From: a virus
Reading direction: 5' to 3' (one strand)
Virus record (IMG/VR): IMGVR_UViG_3300032213_001731
Location: 1-33,490 of that record
DNA length: 33,490 nt
Both the position numbers and the translations under genes were made by a program. Within the stretch, counting starts at the first letter, position 1. The number at the start of each line of letters is the position of its first letter. The notes below the pieces were generated by a model, which had not been told where the DNA came from, searched no databases, and was given only the letters and a program-made list of their open reading frames with translations. Shown in pieces: positions 710 through 30,504 of this stretch.

Positions 710-728
710 GGCGAGGATTCTCCCCGCC
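710..728 (-). promoter_or_regulatory. Leader hairpin 1 of the repeated GC-rich hairpin family
   Basis: An 8-bp stem with one mismatch and a 3-nt loop (top strand GGCGAGGA-TTC-TCCCCGCC) lies 21 nt upstream of the ATG at 689. It is one of five near-identical hairpins that precede the first gene of each leftward block. It is followed on the minus strand by a GAAGGGGG ribosome binding site. No U-tract follows, so it is not a classical terminator. Confidence 0.7.
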
Positions 729-731
729 GTA

Positions 732-908
732 CTACTTAAATACAAGCTCCCCAAGCTCATAGTCTGCCGTAATGTGCCGCATGATTTGGTAGAGCTCCCA
801 GGCAAGCTCATGCTCGCCCCGGGCATCCGCCTCGCGGATGCACTCCATATAGGGCGCGGCTAGCTCTCGCGCCGCCTTAAGCGTTGCGATATCATCCGCC
901 AGGCTCAT
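732..908 (-). CDS. Hypothetical small helical protein, 58 aa
   Basis: This short reading frame begins MSLADDIATL and ends GELVFK. It is rich in Ala, Glu and Leu and looks entirely helical, with a predicted amphipathic pattern and no Cys cluster. Its ATG at 908 overlaps the stop of the upstream gene as ATGA, which strongly suggests translational coupling. A GGGAGGGG ribosome binding site lies just upstream. It is the third and last gene of the block that begins at 1251. Its stop lies four bases before leader hairpin 1. Function unknown. Confidence 0.7.
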   Translation of the reverse strand: MSLADDIATLKAARELAAPYMECIREADARGEHELAWELYQIMRHITADYELGELVFK

Positions 909-1084
909 GCTACGCCCCTCCCATACGATGCTCGAAATAGCGTAATGCGGTAGGCGAGGCCAGGCCCACTACGCGCCGCCATAATCGCCTCTTGCTCTAC
1001 GCGCTTAGCCTCTTCATAGGTTGCGTGCACGGTGTCATGATCGCCGCCTGGTTTGTGGCGGCGTACAATCCATCCGCCCCTCAT
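905..1084 (-). CDS. Hypothetical small basic protein, 59 aa
   Basis: This short frame begins MRGGWIVRRH and ends YGRGVA. The N-terminus reads like a small beta-rich domain (WIVRRHKPGGDHDTVH), followed by a helix with Glu/Lys/Arg (YEEAKRVEQEAIMAAR). Both ends overlap neighbours by ATGA (stop of the previous gene with this start, and this stop with the next start), so it sits inside a three-gene coupled block. The upstream ribosome binding site is a run of Gs. I do not recognise the family. Confidence 0.7.
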   Translation of the reverse strand: MRGGWIVRRHKPGGDHDTVHATYEEAKRVEQEAIMAARSGPGLAYRITLFRASYGRGVA

Positions 1085-1251
1085 GATAGCCCCCCGGCAC
1101 GTGCCGCCGCCCTGAATAGGCGCACGGCCTGGCGCTTAGTGTAGCCCATGAATAGCCGCGACACATACGCGCCGCCTATCATCGCCTCGATCCGATACGC
1201 GCCGCCGTTTACGCCCGCCGTGCGGGTTATTGTGAGCTCGATCCTGCCCAT
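1081..1251 (-). CDS. Hypothetical small protein, 56 aa, first gene of a three-gene block
   Basis: The frame begins MGRIELTITR and ends RAGGLS. It has alternating beta-like segments (ELTITRTAGVNGGAYRIEAMIGGAYVSRLF) and then a basic helix. The ATG at 1251 has the AAGGGGG-TACACT leader also seen at 689 and, with one base changed, at 2731. It is preceded by leader hairpin 2. A longer frame in another register (1136-1318, minus) ignores this ribosome binding site and was rejected. Its stop overlaps the next start as ATGA. Function unknown. Confidence 0.7.
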   Translation of the reverse strand: MGRIELTITRTAGVNGGAYRIEAMIGGAYVSRLFMGYTKRQAVRLFRAAARAGGLS

Positions 1252-1271
1252 AGTGTACCCCCTTCGATTCT

Positions 1272-1290
1272 GGCGGGGATTCTCCCCGCC
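1272..1290 (-). promoter_or_regulatory. Leader hairpin 2 of the repeated GC-rich hairpin family
   Basis: A perfect 8-bp stem with a 3-nt loop (top strand GGCGGGGA-TTC-TCCCCGCC) lies 20 nt upstream of the ATG at 1251. It is followed on the minus strand by AGAATCGAAGGGGGTACACT and then the start codon. It is nearly identical to the hairpins at 710 and 2752. No good -10 element is visible immediately upstream of this copy. Confidence 0.75.
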
Positions 1291-1311
1291 CTACGCCATA
1301 CCCTACGCCAT

Positions 1312-1369
1312 GCGGCACGGGGTGTCAATAGGGGGGCGAGCTCATGCCCGCCCCCCGTAGCCGTGCCGC
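1312..1369 (-). other. Nested long inverted repeat after the stop of the 109-aa gene
   Basis: An outer 9-bp stem (1312-1320 with 1361-1369, GCGGCACGG/CCGTGCCGC) encloses an inner 8-bp stem (1331-1338 with 1349-1356, GGGGGGCG/CGCCCCCC). It begins four bases after the stop at 1373 on the minus strand. It is much larger than the leader hairpins and has no U-tract. It could slow or end transcription, protect an mRNA 3' end, or be part of a structured RNA. The pairing is directly visible; the role is inference. Confidence 0.55.
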
Positions 1370-1372
1370 CCC

Positions 1373-1702
1373 CTAATAGGCGGGCGCCGTGTCGAGCGTG
1401 TAGGCGTAGCCGCCCTCCATCGCCCCCGCCGATACGATAGCCGGAGCGTAGGCCTCGCCCTCGCGCCGCATATCATCGAGGAGCGCGAGCGCCGCCGCCG
1501 TGTGCGCCTCGTACTGGTTGAGCTCATACGGGTAGCTGATCGCAACGCGCGGGCGCTTACCCGCCCCTGCTAGGCGGGCAACGATCCGCGCCCCGCGTGT
1601 ATTTGTCGCGCCGTAGTATCGGGTAAGAATAACGGCGTGCGTGCCGCCCGCCGCCGTAGCGGTAGCGTGTACCCTCGCCGCGTCGATTGTATAGCCCTTC
1701 AT
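1373..1702 (-). CDS. Hypothetical protein, 109 aa
   Basis: The protein begins MKGYTIDAARVHATATAAGG and is Ala- and Tyr-rich. Alternating strands and helices are apparent (THAVILTRYYGATNTRGARIVARL, then a helical AAALALLDDMRREGEAY). It has no Cys, no signal peptide and no membrane segment. The ATG at 1702 follows a GAAGGGGG ribosome binding site, with leader hairpin 3 further upstream. It is a single-gene block, ended by the large inverted repeat at 1312-1369. I do not recognise the family. Confidence 0.65.
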   Translation of the reverse strand: MKGYTIDAARVHATATAAGGTHAVILTRYYGATNTRGARIVARLAGAGKRPRVAISYPYELNQYEAHTAAALALLDDMRREGEAYAPAIVSAGAMEGGYAYTLDTAPAY

Positions 1703-1731
1703 GATCGCGCCCCCTTCATGCTATCGGCTAA

Positions 1732-1754
1732 GGGGGCGGGATTCTCCCGCCCCC
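1732..1754 (-). promoter_or_regulatory. Leader hairpin 3 of the repeated GC-rich hairpin family
   Basis: A perfect 10-bp stem with a 3-nt loop (top strand GGGGGCGGGA-TTC-TCCCGCCCCC) lies upstream of the gene starting at 1702. On the minus strand a TACAAT -10-like hexamer (1764-1769) ends 9 nt before the stem, the geometry expected if a transcript began at the hairpin. No convincing -35 accompanies it. Confidence 0.7.
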
Positions 1755-1773
1755 CGCCCTTTGATTGTAGCCG

Positions 1774-2082
1774 CTAGAATCGGCTACCCGTGCGACGTTG
1801 CGCGAGCGCGTCGTCGATCGCCCGCCCCGCCCCGTATGATCCCCCGCCGCTATCGGCTAGGGCGCTACGGGCGCGGCTAGCGGCTACCGCTACCGCGTCG
1901 AGGAAGCGCCCCCCGTCAAACGTCGCCCCGCTATCGTGCAGGGTATCGGCTACGGCGAGGGCTACCCGATAGGCCGCCCCCGCAGCCCGGATACCCTCGC
2001 CGCCCCCGTCGATGGATTCTACCGCTACCGCCCGCCCTAGCGTATCGGCTAGCTTCACATAGTCGCGCCTCGACATGCTCAT
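1774..2082 (-). CDS. Hypothetical Ala-rich protein, 102 aa
   Basis: The frame starts MSMSRRDYVKLADTLGRAV and is almost entirely Ala-rich helices with two Gly-rich turns (DGGGEG, DSGGGSYGAG). ATG at 2082 has GGGGAG nine bases upstream and is preferred over the ATG six bases downstream. It is a single-gene block between leader hairpins 3 and 4. No membrane segment or catalytic motif is recognised. The bundle-like composition suggests a small helical scaffold or binding protein, but this is weak inference. Confidence 0.65.
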   Translation of the reverse strand: MSMSRRDYVKLADTLGRAVAVESIDGGGEGIRAAGAAYRVALAVADTLHDSGATFDGGRFLDAVAVAASRARSALADSGGGSYGAGRAIDDALAQRRTGSRF

Positions 2083-2107
2083 GATTCTATTCTCCCCTCA
2101 TACTATC

Positions 2108-2126
2108 GGGCGGGATTCTCCCGCCC
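2108..2126 (-). promoter_or_regulatory. Leader hairpin 4 of the repeated GC-rich hairpin family
   Basis: A perfect 8-bp stem with a 3-nt loop (top strand GGGCGGGA-TTC-TCCCGCCC) precedes the gene starting at 2082. On the minus strand a TACAAT hexamer at 2133-2138 ends 6 nt before the stem, similar to the arrangement at the main promoter (TATGAT ending 7 nt before hairpin 5). Confidence 0.7.
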
Positions 2127-2141
2127 CCTTCGATTGTACCC

Positions 2142-2306
2142 TTAGCAGGGTAGCCCCGCCGCCCGGTTGCAGGGTAGCAGCAGGATCACAATAGCCCCGC
2201 CGATAATCCCCGCCCAGGCTAGGCGGTGCAGCATACGGGCGCGGCGCTCCCGCGCTTGGTGCTCTGCAATCGTGCGCAATGAGGCGACGCGGTAGCCCCG
2301 CCTCAT
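2142..2306 (-). CDS. Small single-span membrane protein, 54 aa
   Basis: The frame begins MRRGYRVASL. A positively charged N-terminal helix (EHQARERRARMLHRLAW) precedes one hydrophobic segment (AGIIGGAIVILLLP) near residues 31-44 and a short C-terminal tail (CNRAAGLPC) with two Cys. An N-in topology is expected from the positive charge. Start 2306 is chosen over an in-frame ATG further upstream because a GAAGGGGGGG ribosome binding site sits just before it and it overlaps the previous stop as ATGA. It is coupled to the Cys-rich gene 2303-2731. Function unknown. Confidence 0.65.
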   Translation of the reverse strand: MRRGYRVASLRTIAEHQARERRARMLHRLAWAGIIGGAIVILLLPCNRAAGLPC

Positions 2307-2731
2307 CGCGCCCCCCCCTTCGCGTTGCAGCGGCACGTGTCGCAATGGGCATCATACCCGTGCTCTTCGCAGCACGTATCGCATTCATACGGCGCACCCT
2401 CTTCGAGGATATCCGGTTGCGCCTCTTGCGCGGATAGCCCGCCGCCCTTTGTGCCCGTCGCCTCTTCGATATATAGGGCGTCATGTGCCAGACATACCCG
2501 CAACGGCGGGCAGCTAGTACCCTCGAAGCGGCGCACGGCGTAGGTTGTGAATCCTGGCGCGGCGTAGTCGTCGAGCATCGCCCCTAAGCGATCCCCCCGC
2601 CCTACCGCGAGGATCGCACGCCCCCTCTTAGCCTCTTCGAGAATTTCGGCACAATCCCCGCACAACCGGGTGCCGCGCTCGGCGGCGTAGTAGTCTCCCC
2701 TGCAACGCTTGCAGACATAGGCGCGATCCAT
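2303..2731 (-). CDS. Double zinc-ribbon-like protein, 142 aa, promoter-proximal gene
   Basis: The N-terminus carries a CxxC-13-CxxC zinc ribbon (Cys 7, 10, 24, 27). The C-terminus carries a second cluster (Cys 117, 120, 121, 130, 133, 135; His 124, 129). Between them is an alpha/beta segment of about 85 residues with a Leu/Ala/Asp-rich helix. Start 2731 is chosen for its AAGGGGG-TACGCT leader; the frame itself extends 25 codons upstream, through hairpin 5 and into the promoter, so the longer version is unlikely. It is the first gene downstream of the strongest leftward promoter. A role in binding nucleic acid or host transcription machinery is a guess from the zinc ribbons and the early position. 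Confidence 0.7.
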   Translation of the reverse strand: MDRAYVCKRCRGDYYAAERGTRLCGDCAEILEEAKRGRAILAVGRGDRLGAMLDDYAAPGFTTYAVRRFEGTSCPPLRVCLAHDALYIEEATGTKGGGLSAQEAQPDILEEGAPYECDTCCEEHGYDAHCDTCRCNAKGGAR

Positions 2732-2751
2732 AGCGTACCCCCTTCGATCAT

Positions 2752-2770
2752 GGCGGGGATCATCCCCGCC
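2752..2770 (-). promoter_or_regulatory. Leader hairpin 5, at the predicted 5' end of the leftward transcript
   Basis: A perfect 8-bp stem with a 3-nt loop (top strand GGCGGGGA-TCA-TCCCCGCC) begins 7 nt downstream of the TATGAT -10 element. The predicted RNA would therefore start with, or within a base or two of, the hairpin. It is followed by ATCGAAGGGGGTACGCT and the ATG at 2731. Confidence 0.75.
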
Positions 2771-3345: not shown

Positions 3346-3377
3346 TTGACAAAACACCCCCGTTTTTCTGGTTATAT
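3346..3377 (+). promoter_or_regulatory. Rightward promoter, TTGACA with an extended -10
   Basis: TTGACA (3346-3351) is a perfect -35. The best -10 is TTATAT (3372-3377), preceded by TG at 3369-3370 as in extended -10 promoters. The spacer of 20 bp is longer than usual, which lowers confidence. It would drive the plus-strand genes from 3494. Confidence 0.55.
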
Positions 3378-3399
3378 GGGGGAGACACAGAGGGGGCAA

Positions 3400-3463
3400 C
3401 GAACTCACCCTCCACAAGATTGGTCTCTCACTCAATAGAGTTCGCTCTGGCCGCTAGGCCAGA
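3400..3463 (+). promoter_or_regulatory. Folded 5' leader of the rightward transcript
   Basis: CGAACTC (3400-3406) can pair with GAGTTCG (3438-3444), and TCTGGCC (3446-3452) with GGCCAGA (3457-3463) through loop GCTA. The second hairpin ends 18 nt before the AAGGAG ribosome binding site of the first gene, so it could influence translation or mRNA stability. Confidence 0.5.
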
Positions 3464-3493
3464 TTAAGAATGGGGAAACCCAAGGAGTTAAAA

Positions 3494-3796
3494 ATGCCAA
3501 AGGGCAAGATTCTGATGGGGAAGAAGACCCCAGCAAAGCCAGCAGCCAAGCCTGCTCGTCGTCCACAGTTGGACAAGATGGGTCCAAACCAGGGGTTTAA
3601 CATCATTGGAAAAACCGCAGCGGGAAAGAACATTAAGACTCTTGAAACAGGCATTGGCATTCGAAATGCACAAAATGCCTACTACGGCAACCCAGTAAAC
3701 AAGCAGCAGATTCTCAAGGAAGAGCGAGTTCGGGCTAAGGCTGGAGCAAATAGCATCTACGCCAACCGAAATTATGACCGCAAGGGCGGCAAGTAA
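3494..3796 (+). CDS. Lys-rich basic hypothetical protein, 100 aa
   Basis: The protein is strongly basic: MPKGKILMGKK followed by Ala/Pro/Lys runs, ending DRKGGK. Start 3494 is chosen because a perfect AAGGAG sits six bases upstream; the in-frame ATG at 3470 lacks one. It is the first rightward gene after the folded leader. The next start lies two bases past its stop, and that gene is also short and basic. Such proteins are common in phage late regions and may bind nucleic acid or be minor virion parts; no specific function can be claimed. Confidence 0.65.
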   Translation: MPKGKILMGKKTPAKPAAKPARRPQLDKMGPNQGFNIIGKTAAGKNIKTLETGIGIRNAQNAYYGNPVNKQQILKEERVRAKAGANSIYANRNYDRKGGK

Positions 3797-4850: not shown

Positions 4851-6263
4851 TTGTCCCGCTTCACCTCAACCAAGGTAATCAACAGCCGCTGGCGAAACAA
4901 TGATTTCGTCGGCGTAGCTGGTTCTACCCACACCTTCCCAGACCAGTTTCATGATGAGTTCCTGGTGGACTGGGCGTTGCAGATCTCCGACGGTTCAATT
5001 GTCATTACGGAAACCCCGACGACGGGGGTCATCCAGATGTCTAGCCTTACCGTTGGAAATATTACCCTCACTGGAACTGCGACTGGAAACTTTGGTGGAG
5101 GATCAGGGACGTATGTAAGTAAAACTGGCGATACCATGAGTGGCCAGTTGCTTGTCTCATCAGCCACCACCACAACGACTGTTGGCTTTGGCGACATCAT
5201 TTTTGCTAAGAATACCTCGTATGGATCCATTGCAGTAAATGCACCAGGCGACAATCTCCACATTCGATCTAAGAATGCAGTTGAAGTTATAGGTCAAACT
5301 GGAGCAGCCCCAGTAAGTCTACGGGCAAAATCTATTGGAGTAAACTCCAGCACCACATCTCCAACGCTTGTAGACGACGGCATCACGTTTGGTGATGATG
5401 TCAATCTCTACCGAGTGTCTGCTAATGCACTAAAGACTGACGATGCCCTTGAGGTTGTTGGAGCACTCACCAATGGCGGAACCTCAGTCAGTTTATCAAC
5501 GCACACCCATGCTGGTATTGGCGTATCAAGCGTTAGCGGAACTTTGCCAATTACCACAAGCGGAACAACTGCTGTTACTGTTGCAATTAACCAAGGATCA
5601 ACCACGGCAGTCGGAGTGTTGCAACTCACTGATTCAGTTAGCAGCACTAGCACAACAACAGCGGCTACACCGAACAGCGTCAAGACATCGTATGACTTGG
5701 CAAATGCAGCACTTGCAACTTCTGCGTTTGCCCAATACAATCAAGGTTCTGGAAATTCAGCGATCGTTTCTAACGCTCCTTGGTATATCTTTTTAAACAG
5801 TCACGCTTTTGCTCTTGGTACTGCTTACTTCAATCGAATTGTTCCATATAAAAACATTACGCTCTCTAATATCTCATTTGCTTCAGCAGGGGTGACATCA
5901 TCTGGATTAACCCTGTGCAGATTTGGAATTTACACTCGTAGCGGAACAACAATGACGCTTGTAGCGCGTACTGCCTCAGACACAACCATCGGAGCTACTG
6001 CAAATACAAAATACACACGAGCATTAGATACAACTGGCGGTTATCCAGCAACCTACTCAATGACGGCAGGGAGTGAATACTTCCTCGCTGTTCTTTCAAC
6101 AGGAAGCACTAACTGGAATGCTGTTGCAGTTGGAACTATGACTAACAACCCAACAGGTATTAGCGGTTCGGTAATGTATTTTAAATCAAGTCAAACTGAC
6201 CTCACTGCAACGGTAACAACAGTCAGCACAAACAACAACTATCACTATGCTGAGGTGTCCTAA
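4851..6263 (+). CDS. Tail-fibre / receptor-binding-like protein, 470 aa
   Basis: The sequence has the Ser/Thr/Gly-rich, beta-repetitive texture of phage fibres. The motif YVSKTGDTMSGQLLV (residues 88-102) contains the DTMSG element common in tail-fibre proteins. The N-terminal 60 residues (DQFHDEFLVDWALQISDG) may attach to the particle. The last 150 residues (from about 320) look like a separate compact beta domain that could bind the receptor or carry the trimer tip. The only start near the previous stop is TTG at 4851. It lies before the lysis genes rather than beside the tail genes, as in several phages with a fibre next to lysis. Confidence 0.65.
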   Translation: MSRFTSTKVINSRWRNNDFVGVAGSTHTFPDQFHDEFLVDWALQISDGSIVITETPTTGVIQMSSLTVGNITLTGTATGNFGGGSGTYVSKTGDTMSGQLLVSSATTTTTVGFGDIIFAKNTSYGSIAVNAPGDNLHIRSKNAVEVIGQTGAAPVSLRAKSIGVNSSTTSPTLVDDGITFGDDVNLYRVSANALKTDDALEVVGALTNGGTSVSLSTHTHAGIGVSSVSGTLPITTSGTTAVTVAINQGSTTAVGVLQLTDSVSSTSTTTAATPNSVKTSYDLANAALATSAFAQYNQGSGNSAIVSNAPWYIFLNSHAFALGTAYFNRIVPYKNITLSNISFASAGVTSSGLTLCRFGIYTRSGTTMTLVARTASDTTIGATANTKYTRALDTTGGYPATYSMTAGSEYFLAVLSTGSTNWNAVAVGTMTNNPTGISGSVMYFKSSQTDLTATVTTVSTNNNYHYAEVS

Positions 6264-6403: not shown

Positions 6404-6888
6404 CTGACCTTGCGCCAGTCCTAACGGGCTGCCATGTCTGTCGAAGTCCTCTTGTTGAGGCAATCAACAAGAAGATGCGCGACGGAATGTCAGATGTGCA
6501 GCTTTCCAAATGGCTCGCAGACGCTGGACACTACATTTCCCGCATCACTCTTGGCAAGCATAAGCGTGACCATCTCACCGAAGACCACGAACACAAGCGC
6601 ATTTCCGCAGTAAAGCACCTACAGAAGCAGAAGAAAACCATTAAAGCAACGGGCGATCTGGCAATGCTGGTGCGAGACTACGTACATAGTGCGGTACAAG
6701 AGGGCGATTTGACGCCAACGCTGGCAGAAGGCCTTCGCGCACAGGAAATGATTGACCGACGCCAAGAAAAGGGCGCTGATCGAGAGGTTGCTCTGCAACT
6801 TGCGGGCATCTTGGGCGGCGGAGCCACGTATCAGATCATTGAGGCAACAGAAATCAAACCATTAGGGGTCGGAGACTCGGAGTCATGA
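6400..6888 (+). CDS. Zinc-finger/HTH DNA-binding protein, possible small terminase subunit
   Basis: The N-terminus holds CHVC (Cys 11, 14) and HKRDH (His 54, 58), framing a helix-turn-helix-like stretch (VQLSKWLADAGHYISRITL). This CxxC...HxxxH arrangement with an HTH is familiar from phage DNA-binding proteins and some small terminase-like proteins. The rest (162 aa in all) is charged and helical, as in oligomerising small terminases. Start is GTG at 6400, overlapping the previous stop, with GAGG upstream. It lies about 3.3 kb before the large terminase gene, not adjacent, so a transcriptional regulator is the main alternative. Confidence 0.5.
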   Translation: MTDLAPVLTGCHVCRSPLVEAINKKMRDGMSDVQLSKWLADAGHYISRITLGKHKRDHLTEDHEHKRISAVKHLQKQKKTIKATGDLAMLVRDYVHSAVQEGDLTPTLAEGLRAQEMIDRRQEKGADREVALQLAGILGGGATYQIIEATEIKPLGVGDSES

Positions 6889-22480: not shown

Positions 22481-23713
22481 ATGCTGAAAGTCCTAGTTTG
22501 GGGACACGTAGAAGACGGTCCCTGCGCCTACTTCCGTGGGCATCAATTCGTTGAAGAACTTAAGAAGCTCGGCGTAGAGTATCGCGGTCTGAACAAGGTC
22601 GGGATGAAGGTCAAAGAGGGCGGAGAAAATCTGCTTCTCCCTGAAGCAATGGCTAAAGGCCTTGTGGACTTTGACACCTCCGATGTGGACTGGGCAGATG
22701 TTGTCGTCTTCCGCCGCTACTACAACACCACGATCTGCTGCAAGACAGAAGAGTGCCAGTTTGTCACCTTCTCCTACGCAGAGGCAATGAAGCATGAGCA
22801 TGGCTGGAAAGAACGCGATCTTATTACGCGGCTCCTCTGGCCCACTTTCCAGTATGCCAACCACGGCAAGGCTATCATCTACGAGACCGACGATGATCAC
22901 TTCAACATCAAACCGTGGAATGGCTATATCAAAGATGTGATTCCAGAATACGAGATGATTGAGCAGATGGCAAAGCGTGCCGATCTGGTCACCACTTCTA
23001 CCAGCACTATCGCTCGGCGGTATGCACGATTCAATGACAATATTCGTGTCATTCGGAATGCCATTGACCCAGAGTTGTACAAGCCAACGGTTGAGCGACC
23101 AGCAGGCGACAAGCCACGGGTTGTTTACTACGGCAGCACCGCTCGACTCCGCGATTACGCTGGGTACCCAGAAGGTCCACGCGGAAAGATCTCTGGCGGC
23201 TACGCTGGCAAGGCGGTCATGGACCTTCGTAAGGAACTACAGACCGTCTTTCTTGGGACTAATGCTGGCACAGAGTCAGTCGTAGCCCAGTTCTTTCAAG
23301 AGCAGTATGGCTACGTTGAGGGCATCAACAAGTTCTGCGAGACCCTCGCCAATACCCACCCAGACATCGGCATTGCCCCACTGATGGGCGATAACTTTGA
23401 TCAAGCCAAGTCTGAACTTCACTGGCTTGAATACGCCCTGACGGGAGCCGCCTTCATTGGCGAGCGGTTCCGTGGCGATGGTCCATACCAGATGGTTCGC
23501 GAAGGGGTAGACGGAATGCTTGCCCGTGGTCGCGGAGAATGGTACGACGCAATGAAAAAGCTCACACGCAGCAAGGATCTGCGAGAACAACTCGCAGGTG
23601 CGGCGCGTGAGCGGGTGCTAAAGGAATATCACTACAAAGATCGAGCAAAGGAATGGGCAGACGCTTTCAAGTGGGCTGCTGAAAACAAGGGTAAAGGAGT
23701 GAAAGTAGCATAA
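22481..23713 (+). CDS. GT-B (GT4-like) glycosyltransferase
   Basis: The C-terminal half has the GT4 pattern: ADLVTTSTSTIARRY (168-182), VIRNAIDPELY, a nucleotide-sugar loop VVYYGSTA, and DIGIAPLMGDNFDQAKSELHWLEYALTGAAFI (295-326) with the conserved Glu317. The N-terminal half has a Rossmann-like opening (LKVLVWGHV...GHQFVEELKKLG) and YETDDDHFNI. It would transfer a sugar from a nucleotide donor, acting in the cytoplasm. AGAGGGTCGA lies just upstream. Its place between capsid and connector genes, under its own promoter, is unusual; it may glycosylate virion proteins or host glycans (inference). Confidence 0.8.
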   Translation: MLKVLVWGHVEDGPCAYFRGHQFVEELKKLGVEYRGLNKVGMKVKEGGENLLLPEAMAKGLVDFDTSDVDWADVVVFRRYYNTTICCKTEECQFVTFSYAEAMKHEHGWKERDLITRLLWPTFQYANHGKAIIYETDDDHFNIKPWNGYIKDVIPEYEMIEQMAKRADLVTTSTSTIARRYARFNDNIRVIRNAIDPELYKPTVERPAGDKPRVVYYGSTARLRDYAGYPEGPRGKISGGYAGKAVMDLRKELQTVFLGTNAGTESVVAQFFQEQYGYVEGINKFCETLANTHPDIGIAPLMGDNFDQAKSELHWLEYALTGAAFIGERFRGDGPYQMVREGVDGMLARGRGEWYDAMKKLTRSKDLREQLAGAARERVLKEYHYKDRAKEWADAFKWAAENKGKGVKVA

Positions 23714-24360
23714 TGGCTGTAGTAAGTTTTTCAACGCTTCTGAGTTCGCTAAGGCTCTCGCTTCGTGACCCAAATAGCACGACGTGGACAGATGGGCAAC
23801 TTGGAGAACTCATTAACCGTGGCATTGATGCCATTGGTGACATCTATCAATCAGAGACTATTCAGTCTACTGCATTCACGCAACCTGTAAGCGGTTCTGT
23901 TTTTTCGGTTGCTCTAACGACAGTAACCTGGCCAATCCGAGTGGATGTTTATGACGAAAGCGGGAAATATCGTGAGACGGTTCGACCCTCGTCTGGCGAT
24001 GGCCCCGATTCGGGTTGGGAGGCGCATGGAGGAATCCTGTATCTCCCAACCCGCTACACCCTTCCAGCCTCTACTGGCACATTGAACATTGTCGGTTATG
24101 GCGATTGGACGCAGCTTAATACATCTGTGTCGTCTTCAACAACCAATCTTGATACGACGGCACAGAATGCGGTCAAGGTCTTTGTTGAGGCTGAGGCGCT
24201 CACGATGCTGACCTTTGACCGAGCGCAGTACCAGCAGTGGCAGGTCTCTGCTGGCTCGTCGGACATCTCTGCCCTTGGCATGAACAACCTTGCCCTTGCT
24301 GCACAGCAGCGTTGGCGACAGGAGAAGAACCGTATTCGACGACTCCGCAAGGGAGGCTGA
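23713..24360 (+). CDS. Head-tail connector / adaptor-like protein
   Basis: This 215-aa protein opens with helices (STLLSSLRLSLRDPNSTTWTDGQLGELINRGIDAIGD) like phage connector subunits that bind beneath the portal, then a beta-rich middle (VTWPIRVDVYDESGKYRETV, ILYLPTRYTLP) and helices at the end (FVEAEALTMLTFDRAQYQQW). It sits after the capsid/glycosyltransferase and before the tail proteins and overlaps the previous stop (TAATG). A stopper or adaptor role is likely by position and build. Confidence 0.65.
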   Translation: MAVVSFSTLLSSLRLSLRDPNSTTWTDGQLGELINRGIDAIGDIYQSETIQSTAFTQPVSGSVFSVALTTVTWPIRVDVYDESGKYRETVRPSSGDGPDSGWEAHGGILYLPTRYTLPASTGTLNIVGYGDWTQLNTSVSSSTTNLDTTAQNAVKVFVEAEALTMLTFDRAQYQQWQVSAGSSDISALGMNNLALAAQQRWRQEKNRIRRLRKGG

Positions 24361-24362
24361 TC

Positions 24363-25241
24363 GTGGATTTCAACAGGCAAATCAATATTGCTACGGGTAC
24401 GGCTACCTCTGCGTATCTCAATCTCAATAGCATCACGACTGCCCCAACGTTTGGAACGCCATTTAGCGGTTATCTGACCGAGAGTGTTTCGTATGCTAAT
24501 ACGAACGTTTCTGGGTTTATTGATCCGTTGGCGCAGCGCGATGGGTCTGAGGCAAACATTGCCACACTAAGCAATCGGCAAATCCAAATGATTGTCCAGG
24601 TATACGGATCATCGGCGGCAGATTTCTACGATAAGCTCAATGGCCTCAACTCGGCATTTCAACCATACCCGTCATTTGCCTCAAGCGATGACGGGTTTCG
24701 TGCGTTGAGGTTTGATCAGGCAACCGTCAGCACGTCATCTTTTAGCACTGGCTTTATCCCGCTATACCTTAATGTTCGACCAGTAAACTTGCCAACGTAC
24801 AACTTGAAAAATGATCTTGTAACCCCACGGACAGACGAGCGTGGTGTTTCTACTAAGGCAGCTATCTCGCTTGTGGCTAAAGATCCACGAAAGATTAATC
24901 AGAATGCAAAGACTGGCACCCTTGCCATTGGGTCAAACACGCTCACAAACAATGGCAATTATGTAGCGTACCCAACGATTACCTTTGTTAACACTGGGTC
25001 GCAGCAGACAGCAACAATCTCAACATCGAGTTGGACATCGGTGATTGTCATTGCCGCTTCCGCGACAACAATCCTGAACAGTACAACTAGGTCGGTGACG
25101 GTTGCTGGCTCATTGCAGATGAACTATATCCTTGACGGCACGACCTCTTTGCCAAACCTATATTCAGGTTCCAACGCTATAACGCTGTCATCGTTAACAA
25201 ATACAACTATTACCTACACCTTTAATGAGGCTTGGTTGTGA
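24363..25241 (+). CDS. Tail / distal-tail-like beta-rich protein
   Basis: This 292-aa protein begins MDFNRQINIATGTATSAYLN. It has long Ser/Thr/Asn-rich beta segments and no helices to speak of. Start GTG at 24363 has GGGAGG six bases upstream; a longer open frame begins at 24237 inside the connector gene and was rejected. It is followed by the baseplate-hub-like protein, the order Dit-then-hub seen in many phages. The C-terminal half (about 195-290) looks like a separate beta domain. A distal tail or tail-tip role is inference. Confidence 0.55.
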   Translation: MDFNRQINIATGTATSAYLNLNSITTAPTFGTPFSGYLTESVSYANTNVSGFIDPLAQRDGSEANIATLSNRQIQMIVQVYGSSAADFYDKLNGLNSAFQPYPSFASSDDGFRALRFDQATVSTSSFSTGFIPLYLNVRPVNLPTYNLKNDLVTPRTDERGVSTKAAISLVAKDPRKINQNAKTGTLAIGSNTLTNNGNYVAYPTITFVNTGSQQTATISTSSWTSVIVIAASATTILNSTTRSVTVAGSLQMNYILDGTTSLPNLYSGSNAITLSSLTNTTITYTFNEAWL

Positions 25242-27274
25242 ACGATCAGAAGAAGTTTCGCCTTATCCTTTGGAGTGCGTCAACTTCTGGCTGGCGGGAC
25301 CAGCAAGTTGCTGTTGTCTATGATGCGAAATCAATCGCCGTTGAGGAGCACGCTAACGATGTTGGCTCTGCATACTGGACGCTAAACAACGATCACCCAC
25401 AGATTGCTCAGTTTCAACCGCTGCGTCGGCACTACGAGATCAGTCGATGGTCTGACACTCGCAGCAGGTGGGAGTTTGTTGGAGCTGGAATACTCAATGA
25501 TTATACCTCTACTGAATATGAAACGACATTTAGCGGCATTGATTATAAGGCCGTTCTAAACCAGATCTTTACTCCACTTTCAAATATTACCTTCTCTTCA
25601 TCTACGCCGCTAAATCCGAACATTGCAAGCATTTCAATCCCAACAGTCTTTAATCAAACGGACGGGGCTATCGGAAAAGACAATATTAACGGAACTACAT
25701 ATACCAGCACTGGCAATGCTTATTATGACTACACACCATCCTCAGCTTTAACTTTTAATTCGGCGTCTATTAGCGCAATTGCCCAAACAACAAAGACTAT
25801 TGTTGCGGATGCAAAGACTGCCAGCGTAGTGACTCCTTATGTGCGAGTTACCTATTCCGCCACATGGCTCTCTGGAACAACGGCGGGATTCTTGGCCACT
25901 CCACAATGGCGATTCCGAATCAATGCTTCCCCACCTGGGCAGATCGATTCTGGAAATCCACCTATTGGTGATTACGGAAAGTTGGCAGAATTCAGTGTGC
26001 CAGCAGATGGCTCAACTGGAACTTCAAAGTTTTCTGTGACAAATAGATCAGTTGATTTTTTTCCCTATGAGTCAAAACAGGAACTTCGGACAGCATTGAT
26101 TGCCCTTGGTGCCACAACAGCATCTATTGATACTGCCATGCCAGATGCAGTTTCTGCAACTGGTATTTCCGCAAGCAATTATACAACAGGAATTCTTACT
26201 GGATGGTCACTCCGTAAGGGTCTTACTTATTCATTTCAGATTTATGGAGCTATTCACCGAACTTCTGGTGGTGTTAGCGCAAGCAATAACCCAACATGGT
26301 ACGGAACATTGGCTGGAAAACAAATTGTAGAAACCACTGTTGGGCAAGGAGATGAAGATGTTTCAACAGTAATCCAGCGTGTTTTCAGCAATGCAAAGAC
26401 AAGTTCATCAAGTTCTCGAATTAGATATGCTTCACTTAGTGTTAGCGGATCAACCTATACGACGCACACAACCTACTCTGCTGGTCAGCCAACGCTAGAT
26501 TATATCGGTGATCTCTGCGACCTTGAAATGGGCGCACGCGGCGGTGGCTCAAAGGCAATATTCGGCATTGATAAACCTATTGCTGGTTCAGCGTATAGCG
26601 GAAACTTCAAACTATCGTTGAATGTATCTAGCACCGCGATTACCACGGGGCCATCATTGAAGTATCCAGAAAACATTAAAGCGTATTCATTCTCTCCTGG
26701 ATTTGCAAAAGTCCGCAATAACATTACCGTTGTCCCAACAGAGAAATACCTTAGTGGATCAACTGGTCAGGGTGCATCTGGAGCGCAGATCATCGGAGCG
26801 TCAGCTTCTGATAGTGCCAGCATCTCAGCCTATGGGAACATTCCCCTTGTTGCCGCTAAAGGTGGATTCGTTAATGCTGCATCGGCACAAAACGAAGCCA
26901 ATCGAATGCTTACGCTTTATGCCTCTCTTGATACAACAGTATCTCCAAGCGTTCCCAAGAACACCAAGCAGGTTTCTCTTAGAGTTACCGTAGATGGCAT
27001 TGATCCATTCTACAAATGGGATGTCGGGGATTCCATTGGCGTAAATGTTGAACACGGCTTGGTGAATATCAATGAGCCGTTTGTCATCTCTGGGGCAAGA
27101 TGGTTTGGTGAATCCAATGGCCGAGAACTATTGGAACTTGATCTAGTCCAAGGCTCCTCCTTTGCCGCTGCGTTTGGCGGTGGTGGCAACCAATCCGTTT
27201 CTGGAGCACCTGCTGCCAGCATTGGTAGTCCAGGTGCTGTCACTCCACAATTCATTAGGAATTCCCGTTCATGA
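25238..27274 (+). CDS. Tail-tip / baseplate hub-like protein, 678 aa
   Basis: The N-terminus resembles siphovirus baseplate proteins of the gp37-like type: FRLILWSASTSGWRDQQVAV, then AYWTLNNDHPQIAQFQPLRR, HYEISRWSDTRSRWEFVGAG and GIDYKAVLNQIFTP. The C-terminus has VGDSIGVNVEHGLVNINEPF and GRELLELDLV, as in the same family, then a Gly/Ala/Ser tail. The middle (160-480) is a long beta-rich insert. Start is GTG at 25238, overlapping the previous stop as GTGA, with GAGG upstream. Probably forms the tail tip and may carry receptor-binding elements. Confidence 0.6.
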   Translation: MNDQKKFRLILWSASTSGWRDQQVAVVYDAKSIAVEEHANDVGSAYWTLNNDHPQIAQFQPLRRHYEISRWSDTRSRWEFVGAGILNDYTSTEYETTFSGIDYKAVLNQIFTPLSNITFSSSTPLNPNIASISIPTVFNQTDGAIGKDNINGTTYTSTGNAYYDYTPSSALTFNSASISAIAQTTKTIVADAKTASVVTPYVRVTYSATWLSGTTAGFLATPQWRFRINASPPGQIDSGNPPIGDYGKLAEFSVPADGSTGTSKFSVTNRSVDFFPYESKQELRTALIALGATTASIDTAMPDAVSATGISASNYTTGILTGWSLRKGLTYSFQIYGAIHRTSGGVSASNNPTWYGTLAGKQIVETTVGQGDEDVSTVIQRVFSNAKTSSSSSRIRYASLSVSGSTYTTHTTYSAGQPTLDYIGDLCDLEMGARGGGSKAIFGIDKPIAGSAYSGNFKLSLNVSSTAITTGPSLKYPENIKAYSFSPGFAKVRNNITVVPTEKYLSGSTGQGASGAQIIGASASDSASISAYGNIPLVAAKGGFVNAASAQNEANRMLTLYASLDTTVSPSVPKNTKQVSLRVTVDGIDPFYKWDVGDSIGVNVEHGLVNINEPFVISGARWFGESNGRELLELDLVQGSSFAAAFGGGGNQSVSGAPAASIGSPGAVTPQFIRNSRS

Positions 27275-27507
27275 CAGGGAGCCAGTTTAGCACACTCCTT
27301 AATGCCATTGAGGATGTCCGCAAAGACCTCTCTGCCAAGCTGGACTCCATTGAGGAGCGCCTTCGAATTGTTGAGGTAGATCAGGCAAAGGCTTCTGCCA
27401 TTGTGGAAAACAACAATGATCGCACGATTGGTGTACAATGGAAGATAGGGATTACTGTGTCCGCTGTGGGCGTGGTAGCAACCCTGATCGTAAGCCTATT
27501 ACCGTAG
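27271..27507 (+). CDS. Coiled-coil plus single-TM protein, XhlA/holin-like, 78 aa
   Basis: A charged heptad helix (LLNAIEDVRKDLSAKLDSIEERLRIVEVDQ, about 9-38) precedes a single hydrophobic segment near the end (IGITVSAVGVVATLIVSLLP). This is the layout of XhlA-type phage proteins, which aid holin-mediated lysis. It overlaps the tail gene stop (ATGA). It lies apart from the main lysis cassette; a tail-associated membrane protein is an alternative. Confidence 0.55.
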   Translation: MTGSQFSTLLNAIEDVRKDLSAKLDSIEERLRIVEVDQAKASAIVENNNDRTIGVQWKIGITVSAVGVVATLIVSLLP

Positions 27508-27520
27508 GCTGGGAGTATAC

Positions 27521-28672
27521 ATGAGTCTAGAACAGGACATCCACGAGCTTCGGCAACTGGGCCTTTCGTTCTCGATCATCGGTAACCGTGTCGGTCTTTC
27601 CAAAGACCAAGCCCAGAAGCGATACCAGAAGTTCCTCCTTGAAAACCCCCTCCCCCACACCCCCTCCCCAGAGGGGGACTGGTCTTCTTTAGAGGGGGAT
27701 CGGTCTTTTAGAGGAGGGCTAGTTAAGAGAGATACCCCCCCTTACCCCCCCAAGGTTGAGGATCTTATCACACCAGTAGAGCCAGTGCAACTAGACTACA
27801 TTCCAAGGATTGGCTCTCGTGAGGAAACCACGAACGAACTGGTTGTTGCAGCGGGGGACTTCCAGTTCCCTTTTGAAGACCCAGAGGTCTACGCATCCTT
27901 CCTCACGTTCCTTGCAGCAGAGCGACCAGATCGCATCGTGCTAACAGGTGACATCCTAGACCTCACGGCGGTGTCGGCGTATGACCGAGACCCACGGCTA
28001 GGGATGCCAGTGCAGGAAGAACTCAACCACACACACCGACGACTCGCAGAGATCCGCGCATCGGCTGGGCCAGAAGCGCAGATCTTTTTCTTGTACGGCA
28101 ACCACGAAGCTCGCCTCTCCAAGTGGCTGGCGAAGCGTGCGCCTGAGTTGGTTGGCATGACCGACTCCGAAGGTCGAGAGATTCTATCGCTGGCAAACCT
28201 GCTTCGGTTGGACACGCTGAACATTACGCCGTGTCTCTCTGAGGGTTTGGCGTTTGCTGGACCAGAGCACTTCCGCTCGTACTACCAAATCGCCCCAGAC
28301 CTCATCGCCACGCACGGGACCTACTCCCGCAGCACGGGCGGTGGCGCAAGCATCCTGCCAATTGTGGATGCCGCTGGTGTCTCCGTCGTTGGTGGTCACG
28401 ACCATTCGCAAGGTGTGGCGTTCAAGACGGTCGGCGGATTCGCTGGCATTGAGCAGCGTCGTACTGCCGCCATCTCCACGGGAATGATGTGCCGACGGAC
28501 GGAGTTGGGCTACCTTGCCCAACACCAGGTCAGCCGCTGGGCTGCTGGCTTTGCGGTCATTGAACTGTGGGGTGAAGAGGCTGGCCAGTGGCAGCCTGAC
28601 TTCGCATCGTGGACAGGGACGGAACTGGTGTGGCGTGGAAAACGTTACCAGCCCAAGAGTGTGGTAAAGTAA
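27521..28672 (+). CDS. Calcineurin-like metallophosphoesterase with an N-terminal HTH-like region
   Basis: The catalytic domain (about 105-370) has GDFQF (Asp113), GDILD (Asp144), GNHE (Asn194, His195), ATHG (His265) and GHDH (His293, His295), the full two-metal phosphoesterase set, except that the usual His of the first GDxH motif is Gln115. Residues 1-40 resemble a helix-turn-helix (LSFSIIGNRVGLSKDQAQKR) and a Pro/Gly linker with repeated DNA (27640-27720) joins the two. It probably cleaves phosphodiesters or phosphates; the substrate is unknown. GGGAG precedes the ATG. Confidence 0.8.
   Translation: MSLEQDIHELRQLGLSFSIIGNRVGLSKDQAQKRYQKFLLENPLPHTPSPEGDWSSLEGDRSFRGGLVKRDTPPYPPKVEDLITPVEPVQLDYIPRIGSREETTNELVVAAGDFQFPFEDPEVYASFLTFLAAERPDRIVLTGDILDLTAVSAYDRDPRLGMPVQEELNHTHRRLAEIRASAGPEAQIFFLYGNHEARLSKWLAKRAPELVGMTDSEGREILSLANLLRLDTLNITPCLSEGLAFAGPEHFRSYYQIAPDLIATHGTYSRSTGGGASILPIVDAAGVSVVGGHDHSQGVAFKTVGGFAGIEQRRTAAISTGMMCRRTELGYLAQHQVSRWAAGFAVIELWGEEAGQWQPDFASWTGTELVWRGKRYQPKSVVK
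27640..27760 (+). repeat. Purine/pyrimidine-run repeats inside the phosphoesterase linker
   Basis: The coding strand has CCCCCTCCCCC-type runs, then AGAGGGGGACTGGTCTTCTTT followed by the near-copy AGAGGGGGATCGGTCTTTT, then CCCCCC runs. The C-runs and G-runs can pair in RNA. The encoded linker is low complexity (PHTPSPEGDWSSLEGDRS). Confidence 0.5.
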
Positions 28673-28702
28673 TCACAACAAATCCATAACGAAAGGGTCG
28701 AG

Positions 28703-29548
28703 ATGATAGGGGTCGTAGGTACTGGGCAAGTAGCCCAACACGTTCTTGCAGAGCTGCGCCGTCGGGCGCTGCCACATATTGTCTTCTCACGCTCGGCTGC
28801 GCCTATTGGCGAGTCGGGCGTTTCTGTTTTGTACACGGAAACAACCCTACCTGACTTGCTCAGGGAGCACAAGGTGACGAGCGTCATCAACTGCGCGGCG
28901 CAGCGGGACATCGTTGCCTGCGAGAAAGATCCAGGGTCGGCGGTTACGGCGAACGTTGTCTTGCCAACCATCATTGGCCAGCACGTCCGTCAGGTGTACA
29001 TCAGCACCGACTACGTGTTTGACCGCAACGAAGAGTGCCGCCCACTCACGGAGTTCACCGAGAGCAAGGGCGCACTTAGCATCTACGGCACCACCAAGTG
29101 GAAGGGTGAGCAGATGGTGCTTGCCAACAACGGTGTCGTGGCACGGATCAGCAGCCCATGGGGGCTGTATCCGTCGCCGTTCAAGCCACACTTCGCTGAC
29201 TTTGCGATCATGAGTCCAAACACACTAGACCTACCGAATGACCAACACTTCAACCCAACGTACCTGCCCGATGTGGTCGGCACGATGGTGGATTTGGCAA
29301 TCGACGAGCAGTACAACGGCATCTACCACTTGGTCTCCAGCGGCAGGACGGACTGGGCAGCCTTTGCTCAGATTGCTCGCAGGTTCCGCAAGAATAAGCA
29401 GAAGGTCACTGGCTCCGCTCGCAACGACAAGACGCGACCGAGGCATGGTGCGTTGCTAAACGGCAGGCTCCTACCGTTCCGACATTGGATGATTGCTATG
29501 GAAGAATATTGCAGAGGCCAGTTGGCTGAAGAAAGGATTACGCGATGA
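28703..29548 (+). CDS. RmlD-like dTDP-4-dehydrorhamnose reductase (extended SDR)
   Basis: The N-terminal GVVGTGQVA (4-11) is the NAD(P) binding loop. YISTDYVFD (99-107) and YGTTKWKGE (128-136, Tyr128/Lys132) are the RmlD/SDR catalytic segments. FNPTYLPDVVGTMVDLAID matches the C-terminal substrate side. The enzyme would reduce a 4-keto deoxysugar nucleotide, the last step of rhamnose synthesis in the family. It is 281 aa, normal length. AAAGGGTCGAG precedes the ATG. It overlaps the next SDR gene by four bases. Confidence 0.8.
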   Translation: MIGVVGTGQVAQHVLAELRRRALPHIVFSRSAAPIGESGVSVLYTETTLPDLLREHKVTSVINCAAQRDIVACEKDPGSAVTANVVLPTIIGQHVRQVYISTDYVFDRNEECRPLTEFTESKGALSIYGTTKWKGEQMVLANNGVVARISSPWGLYPSPFKPHFADFAIMSPNTLDLPNDQHFNPTYLPDVVGTMVDLAIDEQYNGIYHLVSSGRTDWAAFAQIARRFRKNKQKVTGSARNDKTRPRHGALLNGRLLPFRHWMIAMEEYCRGQLAEERITR

Positions 29549-30504
29549 AGGCACTAATCGTTGGGCATCGTGGCTACCTAGGGCCACTCGTCGTCAAGCA
29601 CCTCAAGCGTGGTGGCGTCACCGTCCACGGGCTGGATGAAGACTGGTACACCGAGACCCTCAACGGGCTGAAGGGCGAGCACGTGCCACACAGCGAGCGC
29701 AACGGGCTGGATGCTCGGCTGGTCGACCTTGACCCGCTTGGCTCTTACGATGTGATTGTCTGGCTGGCTGCTGTCTCCAACGACCCGCTGGGCGAACTCA
29801 ATGTCCTAGACACGCAGTGGTCTAACTACGAGCAGCCGATGCTCCAGGCGAAGCGGTTCTGGCACGAGAACCCATCGGGCAAGTTCATCTACATCTCGTC
29901 GGCATCCGTCTACGGAGCTGGTGAAACCCAACCATCTACGGAGTTGTCGCCAGTCAACCCCCTCTCTGCTTATGGTCGCACCAAGGCAGCGATGGATGCG
30001 TGGCTGCTGGGGCAGGAGCACCACCCGTGGGTGTCCTTGCGCCTTGGCACGCTCTGGGGTGAGTCTCCCAATATGCGCCGCGATCTTGTGGTCAACGCCT
30101 TTATCTGGGAAGCCATCCACAATGGCGTGATCAAACCAGCGTCGGATGCTCGGCGTCCGATTCTCAACGTGGACGACGCGGCGTGGTGCATTGCCCTTGC
30201 CGCCCTTAGCCCAGCCGTCCGTGGTATCCTCAATGTCTGCTCCGAGAACATCACGGTATATGATCTGGCCAGTCGAGTTGGCGATGCGCTCGGTGTTCGT
30301 GTAGAGTACGGTAGTGGAGACGGCGACCGCCGTGACTACCACATGGACAATGCGCGAGCGTTGTACAACTTGGAGATTAGGGAGGGCGAGTTGAAGACGA
30401 CACACAATCCAGACAACCTCTGGCGCGTAGACCGTTGTCTGCGGGGCTATGACGGCTATCTTCCAACGCGCACGGATATGTACAGGAAGTTGCTAGGCGA
30501 ATGA
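29545..30504 (+). CDS. NAD-dependent sugar epimerase/dehydratase (extended SDR)
   Basis: GHRGYLG (7-13) forms the dinucleotide loop, Asp31 ends beta-2 as in NAD-using enzymes, ISSASVYG (117-124) and YGRTKAAMD (143-151, Tyr143/Lys147) form the active site. RRPILNVDDAAWCIALA matches the conserved C-terminal region. Such enzymes epimerise or dehydrate nucleotide sugars. It overlaps the reductase by ATGA and the nuclease by ATGA, so the sugar pair and the recombination genes are one operon. Which reaction it performs is unclear. Confidence 0.8.
   Translation: MKALIVGHRGYLGPLVVKHLKRGGVTVHGLDEDWYTETLNGLKGEHVPHSERNGLDARLVDLDPLGSYDVIVWLAAVSNDPLGELNVLDTQWSNYEQPMLQAKRFWHENPSGKFIYISSASVYGAGETQPSTELSPVNPLSAYGRTKAAMDAWLLGQEHHPWVSLRLGTLWGESPNMRRDLVVNAFIWEAIHNGVIKPASDARRPILNVDDAAWCIALAALSPAVRGILNVCSENITVYDLASRVGDALGVRVEYGSGDGDRRDYHMDNARALYNLEIREGELKTTHNPDNLWRVDRCLRGYDGYLPTRTDMYRKLLGE

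Follow-up and report, generated by a model that had tools for sequence, protein, structure and literature searches.

Putative 5'-terminal RNA hairpins behind leftward promoters in an uncultured phage family

The window analyzed here is the whole of IMG/VR record IMGVR_UViG_3300032213_001731, 33,490 bases of an uncultured virus. Its right arm carries structural and metabolic genes (portal, terminase, major head protein, tail component and ERF), and its left arm is GC-rich (65%) and carries small leftward genes arranged in five blocks. Each block is headed on the minus strand by one GC-rich hairpin, at 710-728, 1272-1290, 1732-1754, 2108-2126 and 2752-2770, followed by an AAGGGGG or GGGGAG ribosome-binding site. 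This layout and all five hairpins agree with a preliminary description of the same DNA, which also called the hairpins near-identical. They are indeed similar GC-rich dyads, but two stem types and different stem lengths are found among them.

In the mRNA sense, a window hairpin consists of a G-rich arm, a GAA loop (UGA in one) and a C-rich arm; the plus-strand loops read TTC four times and TCA once. The hairpin of block 1, GGCGGGGA-UGA-UCCCCGCC (2752-2770), recurs with its leader in the relative G008. A promoter 7 nt before it (2778-2806) is composed of TTGCAC (2801-2806), 17 nt and TATGAT (2778-2783), and the ribosome-binding site AAGGGGG (2738-2744) precedes the start codon at 2731. Block 2 opens with GGGCGGGA-GAA-UCCCGCCC (2108-2126), whose arms are GGGCGGGA/TCCCGCCC, 6 nt after the -10 box TACAAT (2133-2138). 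Block 3 has a hairpin with arms of 10 bp (1732-1754), 9 nt after another TACAAT (1764-1769). The -35 box is not clear in either of these two blocks. The hairpin of block 4 (1272-1290) shares the arms GGCGGGGA/TCCCCGCC with that of block 1, and its orthologs in G001, G008, G011 and G014 have lost one G and one C symmetrically. It lies 9 nt after a promoter (1300-1328) with TTGACA (1323-1328), a 17-nt spacer and TAGGGT (1300-1305). In block 5, CGGCGGGGA-GAA-UCCUCGCCG (709-729 in its full extent) contains a single plus-strand mismatch, which is a G.U wobble in the mRNA; the promoter is the weakest of the five, with TGTATT (739-744) as its best -10 box.

Because a phage collection searched with the window DNA and protein gave no match, no annotated relative was usable, and none was found in that collection; whole records of relatives were fetched from other sources. 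Among viral contigs, the portal has at least 193 relatives, 80 of which were fetched, and a 109-aa protein of the window has 12. Searches with single leftward proteins returned few relatives, mostly on contigs already found. An exact-sequence scan of the viral contigs identified four contigs of the window's phage family; a match on L006 was discarded, its context being unrelated and devoid of a start codon. No new leftward leader of the window type was present in 67 additional fetched loci. The resulting set comprises 55 leaders from the leftward arms of 14 records, the window and 13 relatives. They were hand-picked from a list built by rule, which required a hairpin, a ribosome-binding site, a start codon and a place in the leftward arm; the hand selection limits the counts made from this set.

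A sigma70-type -10 box lies 4-10 nt before most hairpins, and it is often preceded, 17-18 nt further upstream, by a -35 box of the form TTG(ACA). Before 33 non-redundant leaders, TANNNT matches 19 times at the 7 offsets of 4-10 nt, compared with 7 times over the next 33 offsets, and TTG peaks 22-33 nt upstream of the hairpin. A promoter score of at least 13 is reached by 39% of leaders but by only 1.0% of control positions (Mann-Whitney p=2.5e-10). Consistently, TTGACA...TANNNT promoters picked in the left arms blind to hairpins are mostly followed by a hairpin 6-11 nt past the -10 box. Such promoters also precede hairpins of unrelated sequence (G001:3423, GTTGGCACTTGCCAAC; G007:36775, CTGGCACTTGCCAG); other promoter-like sites without a hairpin are listed as well, mostly elsewhere in the genomes. 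The pattern of TAGGGT plus a GC hairpin was scanned across 2.9 million viral contigs, and 12 of the 67 matches have TTGACA at 17-18 nt. All 12 show a ribosome-binding site and a start codon 16-20 nt past the hairpin; 11 lie on contigs already assigned to the family, and the leader of the twelfth, L208, is near-identical. A consensus promoter scan with a stricter rule called the block 1 promoter alone in the window.

These arrangements suggest that each leftward block should be its own transcription unit with its own promoter. Because the -10 box ends 4-10 nt before the hairpin, transcription should start 0-4 nt before the stem, so that the hairpin would form about the first 20 nt of the transcript. 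The idea, from the preliminary description, of a dispersed leader element at a transcript 5' end is supported by promoter position, in the window and in its relatives, and by the covarying pairing described below. An RNase processing site, also proposed, finds no support and is not needed, because the promoter already puts a 5' end there.

The hairpins exceed chance expectation. When the 60-nt window leaders are compared with dinucleotide shuffles, 1-5 of 1000 shuffles reach each hairpin, and the 2.8-kb left arm holds 6 strong hairpins, compared with a mean of 0.39 (maximum 3) in shuffles. The sixth, at 1331-1356, is also intergenic. The preliminary description took equal frequency inside the genes of this arm, or absence from homologous leaders, as signs against a leader element. 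Inside the genes of the window arm there is no hairpin of this strength, none of the 4 internal, overlapping gene starts of the arm has a hairpin, and the leaders of relatives keep theirs. Over a wider stretch and with crude gene calls, 24 of 49 leftward starts after gaps of 41-200 nt carry a hairpin, compared with 11 of 79 after gaps of 15 nt or less. In G002, G011 and G014, one hairpin sits inside the 3' end of the upstream ORF. Because of these gap counts and these three relatives, the rule of exactly one hairpin per block, which holds in the window, is a strong tendency and no law.

The sequence of the stem changes from leader to leader while its pairing is kept. Arms such as GGCGGGGA, GGCGGGA, GGGCGGGA, GGGGGAGGA, GGGGTGGGC, GGGGCGGGGCC and GGGGGGCCGC occur, every one of them matched by its complement; stems range from 7 to 12 bp, and the odd-loop leaders comprise 25 distinct 19-mers. 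Loops also differ between phages (GAA, UGA, CAA, CUA, CGU, AUCUA, GUU and others), GAA being the loop of most leaders in close relatives of the window. The block 3 hairpin illustrates compensatory change: GGGA-GAA-UCCC in the window corresponds to GGCA-CGU-UGCC in the G014 ortholog, GGGGGCGGCA-CGU-UGCCGCCCCC. In the alignment A1 of leader stems, whose rows are centre-aligned hairpins selected for pairing and so are biased toward pairing itself but not toward diversity of pair types, 95% of cells are paired and 7 of 8 pairs have changes on both sides. Its covariation is 0.581, compared with 0.155 in shuffles (0 of 500 reach it) and at most 0.18 in slid versions. In a search open to any mismatch type, the interior non-Watson-Crick pairs of the stems are 6 G.U and 0 A.C; one further G.U in a 7-bp stem (G002:14162) brings the G.U total to 7. 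Because a DNA palindrome would yield G.U and A.C equally, and because varied stems stay paired with covariation, the data favour an RNA hairpin rather than a DNA operator. The element is therefore very probably a 5'-terminal RNA hairpin on the leftward mRNAs, its place at the 5' end being deduced from promoter position.

The mechanism proposed is as follows. Host RNA polymerase would transcribe each leftward block from its own sigma70/sigmaA-type promoter. The hairpin would start at about +1 to +4, so that the mRNA opens with a GC-rich stem-loop and 0-4 unpaired nucleotides ahead of it; a linker carrying the ribosome-binding site would follow, and then the start codon. The distance from hairpin to start codon is mostly 17-31 nt, with a mode of 19-20, and predicted folding gives the hairpin a mean stem probability of 0.92 within its leader context. 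The element would work as RNA, by structure rather than by sequence. With its 5' end paired, the mRNA may be a poor substrate for pyrophosphate removal and for decay that depends on the 5' end (RppH/RNase E, RNase J). The hairpin may also keep the 5' portion of the leader folded on itself. Each mRNA would thereby be long-lived, and its translation would be independent of upstream sequence. In E. coli, mRNAs with paired 5' ends resist RppH/RNase E, and in B. subtilis, roadblocks at the 5' end stabilize mRNA (PMC3997798). The 5'-terminal stem-loops of ompA and papA in E. coli likewise work by structure (PMC3997798), and the window family resembles the ompA type in two respects: its stem-loop lies within a few nucleotides of the transcription start, as judged by promoter position only, and it is conserved as RNA pairing, with compensatory changes and G.U but no A.C pairs. 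It differs from ompA and papA in that most transcription units in one arm of a phage carry such a hairpin, the set being dispersed, differing in sequence and equally placed, with a stability effect that is putative.

Several observations weigh against this proposal. Of the 33 leaders, about 30% lack a good -10 box where one is expected; in the window, the leader at 709-729 has a poor one only. Some leftward gaps in relatives, including gaps further left, are without a hairpin. The G-rich 5' arm is near-universal, which stability alone does not need, and some of the G.U excess could come from C-to-T bias on the non-template strand. In M. smegmatis, 5' UTR structure is uncorrelated with half-life, and a double stem-loop tested there conferred no stability (PMC11728522). 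These results count against a general stabilizing effect. The host of the window phage may be an actinobacterium; the sole hint is one match in a genome collection, a portal with 56% identity whose contig was binned to Salinibacterium, and a bin assignment says little when the contig is from a phage. Because M. smegmatis showed no general link between structure and stability, we hold the whole reading, that of a 5'-terminal stem-loop blocking 5'-end-dependent decay and insulating the leader, below the anatomy and consider it evenly balanced; in it the 5' ends, the protection, the host and the nucleases are all deduced indirectly.

It is unlikely that the hairpin is instead recognized at every transcript start by an RNA-binding protein or by RNA polymerase and acts in antitermination or anti-pausing like HK022 put or lambda boxB. 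Its position directly after the promoter is that of putL (PMC9378689), and the prevalence of GAA loops among close relatives would suit a binding partner. However, loops vary widely between phages, and short transcription units leave little to antiterminate. The put RNA, at the start of phage early transcripts, is conserved in sequence and forms two stems within about 70 nt (PMC9378689), whereas the window-type leader is one hairpin of 17-27 nt followed by a ribosome-binding site. The earlier suggestion of a protein-binding RNA element controlling all blocks together is weakened in the same way: because neither loops nor stems are conserved in sequence between phages, no common recognition sequence is visible.

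A pure translation module, in which the hairpin insulates the ribosome-binding site or serves as a ribosome standby structure and has no role in stability, is an improbable account. The hairpin lies near the start codon, and by folding on itself it would hold its C-rich 3' arm off the G-rich ribosome-binding site; when the 5' arm alone is removed, mean predicted exposure of that site is 0.46 instead of 0.60. However, removal of the whole hairpin leaves predicted exposure nearly the same in nearly all leaders, and the placement of the hairpin also follows the promoter. A switch that hides and exposes the ribosome-binding site is unlikely for the same reason, namely the unchanged exposure after hairpin removal.

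That the dyad acts as DNA, a 19-bp palindromic operator over the transcription start bound by a phage or host dimeric repressor that switches all blocks jointly in the manner of dispersed phage operators, seems quite unlikely. The dyads are mostly perfect with an odd centre and fall at +1 of several promoters, and actinophages of clusters O and EG carry repeated palindromes near starts (PMC4351075, PMC7302621). However, half-sites differ within one genome as well as between phages, the stem length is not fixed, about half of the sequences have C and G exchanged at pair 4, and the stem mismatches are G.U, not A.C. An HTH_3 search of 11 records was without match, its controls being positive. We regard as similarly doubtful an extension of the RNA reading, a family-wide structural 5' 'cap' by which phage messages would be kept while host messages are degraded, perhaps through a structure-reading phage factor. 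A role as intrinsic terminators of the upstream blocks is highly improbable and was rejected: 3 of the 5 window hairpins lie 4-20 nt past an upstream stop codon, and terminators without a U-tract have been proposed in actinobacteria, but no U-tract follows the leader stems (8 nt contain a mean of 1.65 T and at most 3), a terminator scan called none of them, they stand downstream of promoters, the hairpin at 2752-2770 has no leftward gene upstream, and for block 3 a different hairpin, at 1331-1356, is the terminator-like one.

Several phage transcripts, such as T7 class III and gene 10 leaders, start with a stem-loop. The promoters of those T7 leaders are fixed in sequence and are used by the phage RNA polymerase, whereas the window family has sigma70-like promoters and variable stems; a PF00940 search of 11 records gave no match, and its control search likewise matched nothing. 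Phages of clusters O and EG contain many short inverted repeats of 17 bp and 18 bp, respectively. Part of the O repeats and most of the EG repeats lie between genes, a short way before a start, and those of EG are confined to one arm (PMC4351075, PMC7302621). Both sets are invariant in sequence, and the O repeats are partly intragenic, whereas in the window family the sequence varies and the pairing is kept. A scan of 6 genomes found neither consensus. The SAS/ESAS elements of cluster K place an inverted repeat and a ribosome-binding site before a subset of genes, with ESAS half-sites of 17 bp and spacers of 4-13 bp, for which the authors saw little support for RNA pairing (PMC3203893). The layout is alike, but the cluster K half-sites are conserved in sequence, whereas the stems here vary but pair; the 13-bp SAS GGGATAGGAGCCC at the ribosome-binding site has no site with one mismatch or fewer in the 6 genomes. 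An Rfam search returned no family at gathering score, and a sub-threshold match to Acido-1 (27.2 vs 50 bits) was treated as chance. A literature search within an open-access library turned up no description of 5'-terminal hairpins recurring through the genomes of such phages. Stem-loops at mRNA 5' ends are known, and what would be new here is a dispersed, promoter-anchored, sequence-variable set of them in an uncultured phage family. Repeated inverted repeats before actinophage genes have been reported several times, with unknown function, and were mostly taken as DNA-binding sites. In the window family, covariation allows a comparable arrangement to be attributed to RNA, and the arrangement is linked to promoters. 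This yields a directly testable model of message construction in an uncultured phage group, and the rule of promoter, 4-10 nt, hairpin and ribosome-binding site offers a way to locate transcription units in related genomes.

The 11-bp terminator-like hairpin at 1331-1356 (minus strand) is not a leader hairpin. It stands between the stop codon of gene 1373-1702 and the promoter of block 4, and related hairpins, changed in sequence and still paired, occupy the same place in G008, G014 and G015, so that it probably terminates block 3.

The rightward leader at 3375-3494 (plus strand) is a different, larger structured RNA. It has a helix CGAACTC/GAGTTCG, with a compensatory TCCAGTG/CACTGGA in G005 and L078, and a nearly invariant hairpin CTGGCCGCTAGGCCAG followed by an AAGGAG ribosome-binding site. 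It is 99% paired, with a covariation of 0.337 vs 0.106, and has no significant match in Rfam. TAGAGT before the rightward hairpin was dropped as a -10 box, since it overlaps the 3' side of the conserved helix. Under the 'cap' reading, this leader would play the corresponding part for the rightward arm. On phage contig L144, two leaders (5400-5445 and 6810-6860) consist of GTAAACCAC, a hairpin, AGGAGG and a start codon, which suggests that leaders with a hairpin and a ribosome-binding site occur elsewhere as well. The small leftward proteins of the window have almost no known relatives, and GC content steps sharply from 65% in the leftward arm (1-2780) to 53% in 3300-33490. Within or after the structural genes, at 22481-30504 (plus strand), lie genes for a glycosyltransferase, an RmlD-like reductase, an NAD-dependent epimerase and a metallophosphatase, a set of sugar-nucleotide genes on a phage.

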